A DNA stretch of 41,703 nucleotides from a virus, in IMG/VR virus record IMGVR_UViG_3300043353_000009, positions 1 to 41,703 of that record. One strand, 5' to 3'. A program made the translations under genes and the position numbers. Under the pieces are notes generated by a model. It was not told where the DNA came from, searched no databases, and saw only the letters and a program-made list of their open reading frames with translations. Shown here piece after piece: positions 11,269 through 23,585 of the stretch (position 1 is the first letter of the stretch; every line of letters starts with the position of its first letter).

Positions 11269-11300
11269 AAAAAGTCGGGGAGGCATTTTCGCCCTCCCCG
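11269..11300 (-). terminator. Terminator for the leftward accessory operon
   Basis: On the minus strand CGGGGAGG (11300-11293) pairs with CCTCCCCG (11283-11276), followed by ACTTTTT (T run 11273-11269). A second hairpin (TCGGGG near 11305 with TCCCCGA near 11326) lies next to it. Together they fill the 64 bp between the convergent helicase gene and the small membrane gene. Confidence 0.78.
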
Positions 11301-11329
11301 CAGGTGTCGGGGGGAATAACGATCCCCGA

Positions 11330-11425
11330 TCAGTTGTCGCTCATTTGGTCGAGCAGGTAGGCCAAGATGTAGCCGAGGCCGGCGGCGGCAGCGAGGCTCG
11401 CGATGAACATCATCCACATCGTCAT
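11330..11425 (-). CDS. Tiny membrane peptide (31 aa)
   Basis: A 31-residue frame from ATG 11425: a short start, then one hydrophobic helix (MMFIASLAAAAGLGYILAYL) and a polar DQMSDN end. It begins 15 bp after the PEP-CTERM gene and ends just before the operon terminator. The Shine-Dalgarno is poor, and in-frame ATGs at 11416 and 11413 are alternatives. It looks like a single-pass inner-membrane peptide; whether it works with the neighbouring secreted protein is unknown. Confidence 0.4.
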   Translation of the reverse strand: MTMWMMFIASLAAAAGLGYILAYLLDQMSDN

Positions 11426-11439
11426 CGCGAGCCCATTGG

Positions 11440-12126
11440 CTAAGCGAGGCGAACGCCACCCAGCTTCTGACGGGCGCCCAGCAGGCCGAGGCCTAAGAAC
11501 CCGACGATCATCATGAACCACGTGCTGGCCTCAGGCACGGCGGCCTGCAGGTTGAGCTGGCCGGTCTGAAGGCCAACGGCGTCGTGCAGCGCGAACGGGA
11601 ACGGCTGTTCGTACAGGACAAACATCCCGGTCAGGTTGAACGAGTCGCCTTGGCCGACCAGATCAAGTGTGAGGGTGCCCGTGGTGGTGGCACCCTGCGC
11701 GAGGCCGTCACCGGCACCGAACAGGCAGTTCAAACCGGCGTTGCCGCAGAACGACGAGGTGTTGATCCCGCCGTCTACGATGCCGCCGACTTGGGCTTGG
11801 TTGAAGACCGAGCCCGTCATGGACGCGTTCTGGATCAGCGGGGAGGTGTTGAAGCCGAAACCCCACGTCTGATAGGCCGGGAGCGTCGACGTGTTGGTTA
11901 CGGAGTAACCGAACGTCCACGTATTTTGCTGCGTGTTGTGGCCTGTCAAGGTGAGGGTCACGTTGGTTCCGAGCCCGGCAGCGACCGGGTCGGTAACGTC
12001 GTCAATACGGCCGTCAAATGACACCGTTCCACTCTGGCCGATTTGGTTGGCGTTGATGGTCGTGGCACCTGCGGGAGTAACGGCTAAGGCAAGTAAGGCG
12101 GTTGCAGCCAATAAAAGTCGCTTCAT
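11440..12126 (-). CDS. PEP-CTERM-like secreted protein (exosortase target)
   Basis: A 228-residue exported protein. It has a Sec signal peptide (MKRLLLAATALLALAV, cleavage near AGA-TT at about 22), a beta-rich Thr/Asn/Gly body with two cysteines (SSFCGNAGLNCLFG), and a C-terminal tripartite signal: VPEASTW at 197-203, a hydrophobic helix, then a short basic end ARQKLGGVRLA. This is the layout of PEP-CTERM proteins, which exosortase cuts after export to place the protein in the envelope or extracellular matrix; alphaproteobacterial versions typically read VPEPSTW. The canonical second Pro is Ala here. AGGAGA precedes ATG 12126. Phage genes flank it on both sides. A phage-borne copy is unexpected; it may alter the host surface or exopolysaccharide. 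Confidence 0.85.
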   Translation of the reverse strand: MKRLLLAATALLALAVTPAGATTINANQIGQSGTVSFDGRIDDVTDPVAAGLGTNVTLTLTGHNTQQNTWTFGYSVTNTSTLPAYQTWGFGFNTSPLIQNASMTGSVFNQAQVGGIVDGGINTSSFCGNAGLNCLFGAGDGLAQGATTTGTLTLDLVGQGDSFNLTGMFVLYEQPFPFALHDAVGLQTGQLNLQAAVPEASTWFMMIVGFLGLGLLGARQKLGGVRLA

Positions 12127-12173
12127 AGATAATTCTCCTGATCAGAGGATGGTGCGGAATGCACCGCTCAAGG

Positions 12174-12485
12174 TCATGTGCTGGCCTTGGGCGGTGAACT
12201 CTGGTCGAGGGCGGCGCGGGCGACCCGCCCACCATCATAACGTTCGTAATTTGCATAGAACCGCAGCGCCATCTCCAGCGCCGCGATGCGGTTATCCTTG
12301 CGTATCCACATCTCTCCAGCTTCTTTCAGCGCCGCCTCCAGCGCCTTGATACGCTTGGCGGCTTCCTGTGCCGTCTTCTCGACGTTGTAGCGTTCGTGTT
12401 CTACTTCGAACTCCAGCGCCTCGATGCGGGCGGCGGCTGCTTCGCGTGTGAGTAGGTGTGGCCGCGTTGTCTTGGCTATGCTCAT
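12174..12485 (-). CDS. Coiled-coil hypothetical protein
   Basis: A 103-residue, highly charged helical protein. Residues about 13-75 are mostly Ala, Glu, Lys, Arg and Leu with heptad-like spacing (REAAAARIEALEFEVEHERY and KRIKALEAALKEAGEMW). The ATG at 12485 overlaps the upstream stop as ATGA. Its C-terminal half (RIAALEMALRFYANYERYDG) resembles part of the upstream 71-residue protein (RIGVLELALRAAARRF), so the two may be distant duplicates. Function unknown. Confidence 0.78.
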   Translation of the reverse strand: MSIAKTTRPHLLTREAAAARIEALEFEVEHERYNVEKTAQEAAKRIKALEAALKEAGEMWIRKDNRIAALEMALRFYANYERYDGGRVARAALDQSSPPKAST

Positions 12486-12697
12486 TTATCCCCCTCCGGT
12501 TGCAGGGCGGCAACGCATTCGTTGTGGGCGACTGCCGGGTCAACGCCGTTGATCCAGCCGACGCTGGCCATGAAACTGAACCGGCGGGCGGCGGCCCGCA
12601 GCGCCAGTTCAAGCACGCCGATGCGGGCGTCAGCCCGCACCAACGCGCCCTCAAGCCGCAGAATACGCTCAAGGGCCTCGGCCAGCGTGTAGTTCAT
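12482..12697 (-). CDS. Small helical hypothetical protein
   Basis: A 71-residue protein with a leucine-rich N-terminal helix (LAEALERILRLEGALVRADA) and a second helix ARIGVLELALRAAARRFSF. It overlaps the GcrA-like gene by 4 bp upstream and the 103-residue gene by 4 bp downstream, so it is embedded in a tightly coupled operon. No motif identifies its role; oligomerisation through the helices is likely. Confidence 0.75.
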   Translation of the reverse strand: MNYTLAEALERILRLEGALVRADARIGVLELALRAAARRFSFMASVGWINGVDPAVAHNECVAALQPEGDK

Positions 12698-13134
12698 GGA
12701 TACCTCTGCCGGTTGTAGCCGATCGCGCGGTGCTTGGTGCAGTACACCTCCTCGAACGGGGTCGTCTCCCCGCAGTAGCGGTACGGCGGCCGATCGGACA
12801 CCGTGCCCAGAGGCCAGCGGCAGGTGTCGTTCTCCAGCTGGTAGATCGACAGCCCCGGCTCGGCAGCGACCGGCTCCGGGGGAGGAGGGATCGGTGCCGC
12901 CACCGGAACCGGCCGCGGGGCCGGCTTGGATGGCGTCGGTGGGGGTTTGCGGGGGCCGGCAGTGCTTCTCATCGGCAGCTCCATCCGGCGCGCCTTGCCG
13001 ATCAGGGCGTTGCAGGAGATCTCCAGCTTGAAGATAGCAGACATCTCGGTCGCCATCTCCTCGAAAGATCCGCCTTTACGGTGGAGAGCGCGGAGGGTGG
13101 CCATCATGGCAGGGGTCCAGACGTGCTTGATCAT
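12694..13134 (-). CDS. gcrA: GcrA-family cell-cycle regulator
   Basis: A 146-residue protein with the two ends of GcrA. The N-terminus has WTPAMMATLRALHRKGGSFE (6-25) and NALIGKARRMELP (42-54), the helix-turn-helix-like GcrA box normally reading T-RNAVIGK-HRLGL. A Pro-rich linker (about 60-95) follows. The C-terminus has CRWPLG (C105), YRYCG (C121) and YCTKHR (C132, H135). In Caulobacter GcrA binds sigma70 and activates promoters carrying CcrM-methylated GANTC sites. A phage copy could redirect host sigma70 holoenzyme. ATG 13134 overlaps the upstream stop as ATGA with AAGGTG before it; an upstream extension of the frame to 13257 is rejected. Confidence 0.9.
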   Translation of the reverse strand: MIKHVWTPAMMATLRALHRKGGSFEEMATEMSAIFKLEISCNALIGKARRMELPMRSTAGPRKPPPTPSKPAPRPVPVAAPIPPPPEPVAAEPGLSIYQLENDTCRWPLGTVSDRPPYRYCGETTPFEEVYCTKHRAIGYNRQRYP

Positions 13135-22779: not shown

Positions 22780-23112
22780 CTATACCCTCGGCATGCCCTG
22801 CGGCGGCATCTGTTGCGGCGTCTGGGGCCGCTGTTGCATTACGCCGGGCTGTTGTTGCATTACGCCGGGCTGTTGTTGCATCCCGCCCATCATCGGCGGC
22901 TGCGCGCCGATCGGCGCTCCCTGCGGCGGCGGCGCGCCCTGCTGCGGCGGCATCGGCGGGGCCTGCGGAGGCGGCAGGCCCTGCTGCGGCGGCGGGGCCA
23001 TGCCCGGTTGCTGCTGCGGCATCTGCGGCGGCGGGTTGGCGATGTTCATCAGGGCCTGCGTGATCTGGTCACGCTGCCCGTTCTGGGCGGGGTCGAGGAA
23101 AGGGGCGGGCAT
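22780..23112 (-). CDS. Pro/Gln/Met-rich low-complexity protein
   Basis: A 110-residue protein. A helical N-terminus (FLDPAQNGQRDQITQALMNI) precedes about 80 residues of PPQ, MPQQQ, PGVMQQQ and GGMQ repeats, including two copies of QQQPGVM. Its ATG overlaps the GNAT stop by one base and the next gene follows 9 bp later. It is probably an intrinsically disordered virion or assembly protein. No enzyme motif. Confidence 0.72.
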   Translation of the reverse strand: MPAPFLDPAQNGQRDQITQALMNIANPPPQMPQQQPGMAPPPQQGLPPPQAPPMPPQQGAPPPQGAPIGAQPPMMGGMQQQPGVMQQQPGVMQQRPQTPQQMPPQGMPRV

Positions 23113-23585
23113 CAGGCTGCTTCCTTCTTCGCCGCGGCGTGGCGGCGGCGGTTGGAATTAATCTTGCAGTTTTCCCAGTCACCGACGGTGAACGTGGCAA
23201 CAACACCGTCGCGGCCGGGCCCGCCGAGGTGCTTGATCCTGTAGAACGTAAAGCCGAGTTTGGCTGTCAGCGCCAGAGCGGCCTCATTGTCGGCCATCAT
23301 GGTCTGAATTACCATGTGGCAGTTGCACTGGTAGAAGGCGTAGTCGTAGACAATCTGCAGCGTGCGGCGCGACAGCCAGTTGGTGCCGGGCAGGGCCGCG
23401 CCGGAGACCTCGATGGTGCCGACCTCGGGGCACCAATTGCGAAACACCACACCACCAAGCAGGCCGGTCTCGTCGGCGACGCCGATCGCCGTGCATTTGC
23501 CGAAGCCACGGGCGCGGCACTCGGGGATGAACTGCGCGACGAAGTCGGCAATCACCTTGTCGTGCCCGTAGATGTATTCGAGCAT
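23112..23585 (-). CDS. GNAT-like acetyltransferase in the structural operon
   Basis: A 157-residue protein with a GNAT-like outline: beta-strand GKCTAIGVADETGLLGGVVF, then EVSGAALPGTNW, a helix with RRTLQIVYDYAF, and MADNEAALALTAKLGFTFYR, the N-x-A-x-x-L-x-x-K-x-GF-x-x pattern near the end of the fold. Single-domain GNATs occur in rhizobial-type phage virion operons, but the acceptor is unknown. It could modify a capsid or tail protein or a host target. A basic tail (NSNRRRHAAAKKEAA) follows the domain. Start ATG 23585. Confidence 0.78.
   Translation of the reverse strand: MLEYIYGHDKVIADFVAQFIPECRARGFGKCTAIGVADETGLLGGVVFRNWCPEVGTIEVSGAALPGTNWLSRRTLQIVYDYAFYQCNCHMVIQTMMADNEAALALTAKLGFTFYRIKHLGGPGRDGVVATFTVGDWENCKINSNRRRHAAAKKEAA

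Follow-up and report, generated by a model that had tools for sequence, protein, structure and literature searches.

Why should a phage genome encode a protein with the hallmarks of exosortase sorting, described as a bacterial system of exopolysaccharide-associated proteins (PMC1569441)? We addressed this question for IMG/VR record IMGVR_UViG_3300043353_000009, analyzed over 41,703 nucleotides (positions 1 to 41,703; hereafter the window). A first-pass annotation had described an open reading frame at 11440-12126 with a Sec-type signal and a VPEASTW-helix-basic tail. This reading frame exists, on the minus strand, and encodes a protein of 228 residues (P0001; 11440..12126 (-)). As read off the sequence, residues 1-21 form a Sec-type signal peptide (MKRLLLAATALLALAVTPAGA; 12064..12126 (-)). 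The mature ectodomain (residues 22-196; 11539..12063 (-)) is beta-rich, Thr/Asn-rich and Lys/Arg-poor, as judged from its composition and a structure model. Sequence and model also define a C-terminal sorting tail (residues 197-228; 11443..11538 (-)) consisting of VPEASTW, a hydrophobic helix and a basic end; the C-terminus reads VPEASTWFMMIVGFLGLGLLGARQKLGGVRLA. In the structure model the helix spans residues 202-222 and is followed by ARQKLGGVRLA, in which R, K and R make up a weak basic cluster. Judged from the sequence and from the model, which is of low confidence (pLDDT 59), P0001 appears to have an N-terminal signal and no other membrane helix. The good Shine-Dalgarno sequence claimed for the gene is likewise present, as AGGAGA at 12134-12139 (-), 7 nt before the ATG.

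In the NCBIfam scan, P0001 matched NF033947, 'cistern family PEP-CTERM protein', with 96.8 bits (cut-off 60, E 1.3e-27). The match spans residues 22-216 of P0001 and positions 2-192 of the 195 in the model. The cistern model scores ~12-20 bits on phage proteins that merely have a PEP-type tail in common, indicating that the ectodomain supplies most of the P0001 score. These scores rule out chance as the origin of the match. Recognition by PEP-CTERM models was nevertheless divided: P0001 passed the full-length family model but did not reach the cut-offs of the stand-alone tail models (PF07589, 15.9 against 20.7; NF035944, 18.1 against 35), and TIGR02595 did not report it as a match in the same scan. 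The P0001 motif is Pro-Glu-Ala, as opposed to the near-invariant Pro-Glu-Pro of the PEP-CTERM sorting domain. This change had been thought to make processing uncertain. The substitution is real, but the concern is weakened by the recurrence of VPEASTW and VPE[LMT] among independent proteins of phages, with several of these scoring above cut-off on curated PEP-CTERM models. PEA also occurs in L013 and L024, both above the TIGR02595 cut-off. The ectodomain contains 14.3% Thr and 8.0% Asn, compared to 6.8% and 4.2% in the other proteins of the phage, and one Lys/Arg among 175 residues. A bias of this kind has been described for PEP-CTERM proteins (PMC1569441).

Relatives of this ectodomain were sought in 49 phage records, most of them reached via a related portal. 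Two records, L408 and L409, both with a related portal, encode cistern proteins of full length (136.9 and 132.2 bits, cut-off 60). Over the BLAST-aligned part, P0001 is 29% identical to the L408 protein (E 1e-11) and 32% identical to that of L409 (E 8e-11). The tail of L408 is VPLPA-type and that of L409 is GAGLPG. Scanning with a three-member cistern alignment added two records: L413, which duplicates L408, and L416, whose tail is GAGLPG. The homolog search in viral databases that had been proposed for P0001 thus located cistern relatives in other phages, strengthening the PEP-CTERM reading. No relatives of P0001 were found among INPHARED phages or among plasmids, and none of L409 among phages or of L408 among plasmids. 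Exact peptide patterns of P0001 gave no match in genome contigs, a method that shows close relatives only. P0001 was without a PHROGs family and without a match in a PDB sequence search. Foldseek returned adhesin-like beta sandwiches, which we set aside as evidence because the underlying P0001 model is weak. Together, the NF033947 match and these relatives give good support to the first-pass description of P0001 as a phage-borne PEP-CTERM protein and probable exosortase substrate.

Further phages were fetched by the relationship of their helicase to that of the window. One of them, L013, encodes a 217-residue protein with VPEASTWAMM that passes both PF07589 (26.2 against 20.7) and TIGR02595 (18.7 against 16). 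Its ectodomain is unrelated to that of P0001, and it founds a second family of secreted proteins, with at least 113 other IMG/VR loci, 80 of which were kept. The same query, at the same sensitivity, found no relative among 84,980 bacterial and archaeal genomes; one member of the family had no relative in 50,697 named phages, and no convincing family was found in PHROGs. The portal family of the window is present in 11 of 50 second-family records, the remainder being other phage groups or incomplete. The second family was modeled with confidence as a beta-sandwich (pLDDT 87). Carbohydrate-binding modules were its best matches among solved structures (E 1.6e-4, TM 0.3-0.4), a model-based likeness that may weakly hint at glycan binding. 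A third family comprises L007, L115, L410 and L411 (48-51% identical) and had no relatives found among phages. L410 passes the PEP-CTERM sorting domain model (TIGR02595 / PF07589), like L013.

All three of these unrelated ectodomain families, that of the window included, occur in phages with PEP-CTERM, VPLPA-CTERM and VPGPxxGAGLPG tails. In the third family the PEP tail (41.5 against 35) and the VPLPA tail (26.5 against 25.35) are above cut-off. Among 54 representatives of the second family, VPGPxxGAGLPG is the commonest tail (30), followed by PEP (16) and PLPA (8). On the ectodomain tree of this family, parsimony requires at least 12 tail changes, or at least 3 if only starred branches are trusted. 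Where a phage encodes two or three tail proteins, these share one tail type (15 of 15 phages). Shuffling of the labels gave 5.1 concordant phages on average (P about 1e-5), with the 15 phages not being fully independent. The ectodomains of tail proteins from the same phage show no detectable relationship (best E 0.004 over 31 residues), and whole-gene duplication therefore fails to explain the concordance. Our reading is that, within each phage, the tails match the sorting enzyme of its host. As a weaker alternative, part of the agreement may stem from neighboring genes having exchanged their 3' ends.

In none of the scanned proteins did the GAGLPG tail reach the cut-off of an NCBIfam model, and its sequence makes it a candidate for an unmodeled C-terminal sorting signal. 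A VPGPxxGAGLPG-helix-RRRR tail was seen on several unrelated secreted proteins (L005, L007, L008, L016, L026-L031, L059, L061, L067, L409 and others). In L002 (214-906) and L082 (9947-10639) the C-terminus reads ...VPGPVAG-VPEP(G/A)TW..., with a GAGLPG-type remnant that immediately precedes a PEP-type tail and gives the impression of two tails spliced together. Among viral contigs, PEP-type tails are frequent: a degenerate DNA pattern for PE[P/A]xTWxMM matched at least 120 stretches, a count that is an upper view since some of these contigs are isolate genomes or possibly include host flanks. Phages with a portal provide more secure ground. All 84 of the 84 matches examined were in frame, with a stop 25-48 codons on. 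Note that nine records with PEP-CTERM genes (L202, L227, L145, L168, L177, L193, L205, L215 and L240) have IMG ids (27..-29..) resembling those of isolate genomes; such records could reveal hosts. Searches with short tail peptides by tblastn gave no match and were weakened by low-complexity filtering.

The gene is preceded by a structured mRNA leader (12126..12199 (-)), recognized by identity, fold and compensatory pairs, which includes the Shine-Dalgarno sequence and can form a long hairpin (CACCGC..GCGGTG) or an alternative one (GGTGC..GCACC). The window leader is 82-98% identical to the leaders of L144/L247, L148, L139, L180, L041 and L054, whose ectodomains differ. In the stretches compared, L144, L148, L139 and L180 have little or no further DNA in common with the window. 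The fold of the leader has a z-score of -2.4. The long hairpin shows 12 compensatory cells compared to 5.5 in shuffles, with 0 of 500 shuffles as high. Five pairs of the alternative hairpin are present in 20 of 20 sequences, two of them with compensatory changes. A covariance model scored 82.3 bits on the window leader, itself a member of the training set, and placed the leader upstream of nine more PEP-tail genes outside that set, L061 being a partial exception. No match over threshold was found in Rfam. Since like leaders stand before PEP-tail genes with different ectodomains, leader, signal and tail appear to be a single mobile frame that receives ectodomains; that the leader has a regulatory role is our guess. 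The mutually exclusive two-hairpin arrangement was seen at 12126-12199 (-) and in L041, L054, L144, L148, L139, L236, L180, L246, L174 and L254. The Shine-Dalgarno sequence of the leader is located within or next to short palindromes, which vary from phage to phage (CTGATCAG, CTAGCTAG and CTGCAG).

We also considered the genome in which the gene resides. The window contig has an exact 127-bp terminal repeat and carries genes for portal, major head, tail, amidase, DNA polymerase, helicase and primase/helicase. The PEP gene is the last of a long minus-strand block and faces the helicase of the plus-strand block. It had been placed in one operon after a GcrA-like gene. A GcrA-type cell-cycle regulator was confirmed at 12694-13134 (-) (PF07750, 62.9 bits, cut-off 26.9), but two small reading frames (12482-12697 and 12174-12485) separate it from the PEP gene. 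The 31-residue peptide reported downstream was found as a hydrophobic open reading frame at 11330..11425 (-). Segment folding identified an intrinsic-terminator-like hairpin followed by TTTTT at about 11272..11301 (-), which closes the minus-strand unit and is absent from the list of a consensus terminator scan. An acyl-CoA N-acyltransferase (PHROG 4470, listed as moron/auxiliary) is encoded at 23112-23585 (-). Neither the window nor those of its helicase relatives that were tested yielded an integrase, suggesting that this phage, which is probably podovirus-like, is also probably lytic. Portal relatives of the window occur in Rhizobium and Bradyrhizobium phages, and 9 of 50 second-family phage records contain a GcrA above cut-off. 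The GcrA gene and these portals, as sequence features, suggest an alphaproteobacterial host.

The position of the tail gene supports its being accessory, moron-type cargo. Counting manually from a table of 34 distinct helicase-related phages whose sequence extends 4.8 kb or more beyond the helicase, we found a tail gene 1-4.4 kb past the helicase in 20 and none in 14. In the nearest relative of the window, L004 (helicase 72% identical), its place is taken by a protein of the third family whose tail is GAGLPG (L115 2042-2836).

How might such a protein function? Across 50 phage records no exosortase was encoded, and any processing of the tail would thus require an enzyme supplied by the host. 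We infer that P0001 is sorted by a host enzyme, and we consider it fairly probable that the gene provides an accessory substrate of such an enzyme. As accessory cargo of a probably lytic, podovirus-like alphaproteobacterial phage, P0001 would be exported by Sec, and its C-terminal helix would retain it in the inner membrane. Given that the phage has no such enzyme, the host's own exosortase is proposed to cut the protein and pass it to the cell surface or the extracellular matrix. Such phages may join various ectodomains to one tail from a small set, the tail matching the sorting enzyme of the host. Once displayed, the protein would most likely bind or cover host surface glycans, and this cover could alter access to phage receptors, resulting in superinfection exclusion or a change of the matrix. 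Whether as superinfection exclusion or as glycan masking, a surface function of this kind is a guess, and exclusion in particular is a tentative suggestion that we hold at somewhat less than even. We are similarly reserved about the broadest form of the proposal, in which phages of Alphaproteobacteria and other hosts would possess a combinatorial kit of ectodomains and host-enzyme-fitting tails that closes the cell to rivals, GAGLPG being an undescribed signal for an undescribed or unrecognized enzyme.

The below-cut-off scores of P0001 on the stand-alone tail models and its weak basic cluster would also fit a C-terminal helix that is a mere inner-membrane anchor, of a periplasmic protein that always escapes exosortase cleavage and blocks, for example, DNA entry by a second phage. 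We consider this unlikely, as tails of the same class elsewhere in phages pass PEP-CTERM and VPLPA-CTERM models, and a plain anchor has no need of unit-wise tail swapping or of agreement within a phage. Somewhat less doubtful, though still improbable, is that the displayed protein alters the host exopolysaccharide or biofilm matrix, affecting spread or survival of infected cells, and does not exclude other phages. Bacterial PEP-CTERM proteins are linked to EPS and flocs (PMC1569441; PMC9850573), and the weak likeness of the second-family fold to CBMs points in the same direction; however, the window phage shows no integrase, which would leave little time for a matrix effect.

A role in lysis or envelope disruption, as a spanin-like or auxiliary protein, is very unlikely. 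The gene adjoins an amidase-like gene in some relatives (L013, L008), but the latter sits on the opposite strand, 14 of the 34 relatives are without the gene, one phage can hold two to three unrelated ectodomains, and the family is one of surface proteins. A chimeric assembly, or host DNA caught in a viral contig, has hardly any probability left. The ectodomain family was modeled for bacterial annotation and the GC content is slightly lower (0.62 against 0.646), yet the contig is closed by its terminal repeat, phage genes flank the locus on both sides and the composition is ordinary. Like genes recur in the same region near the helicase of many relatives, and two other phages encode cistern proteins. 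The chimera, which the first-pass annotation had named as a possible refutation, was thus contradicted and dropped. Overall, the evidence supports the view that the P0001 gene and its relatives are an accessory surface-protein cassette relying on host sorting.

If phages do supply substrates without the enzyme, this would be a new viral means of changing the infected cell. Given tail agreement within phages and tail swapping between them, tail type could predict the sorting enzyme of the host or the host range, a prediction that could serve many viral contigs without an assigned host. The naturally swapped tails would also be useful for asking which residues each exosortase recognizes. In the literature we found no paper on phage PEP-CTERM proteins, most subscription journals lying outside the coverage.

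Compared with known systems, P0001 resembles the NF033947 cistern family over its full length, from signal to tail, and above the curated cut-off. It differs in being phage-encoded and in having PEA for PEP, and its phage cousins bear VPLPA-type or GAGLPG tails. With the PEP-CTERM/EpsH (exosortase) system (TIGR02595, PF07589, PF09721) it shares the signal, the C-terminus of motif, helix and basic end, and the Thr/Asn-rich ectodomain. In contrast to that system, P0001 is a viral substrate without its enzyme, with a structured leader directly upstream; a sigma-54-type site has been described upstream of bacterial PEP-CTERM genes (Haft et al. 2006; PMC1569441). Related phage tails are above cut-off on the VPLPA-CTERM (TIGR03370) and PEPxxWA-CTERM (NF035944) models (L411, L410, L032), whereas the VPGPxxGAGLPG tail stands apart from these variants. 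Phages are known to carry accessory genes that alter the cell surface, such as lambda-type Lom and Bor and the receptor-blocking phage lipoproteins, all of which are outer-membrane proteins or lipoproteins. As in these cases, a phage gene product would go to the host envelope, but the route of P0001 would be the exosortase pathway. The putative surface proteins with swapped tails thus point to an unreported route by which phages redecorate infected cells.
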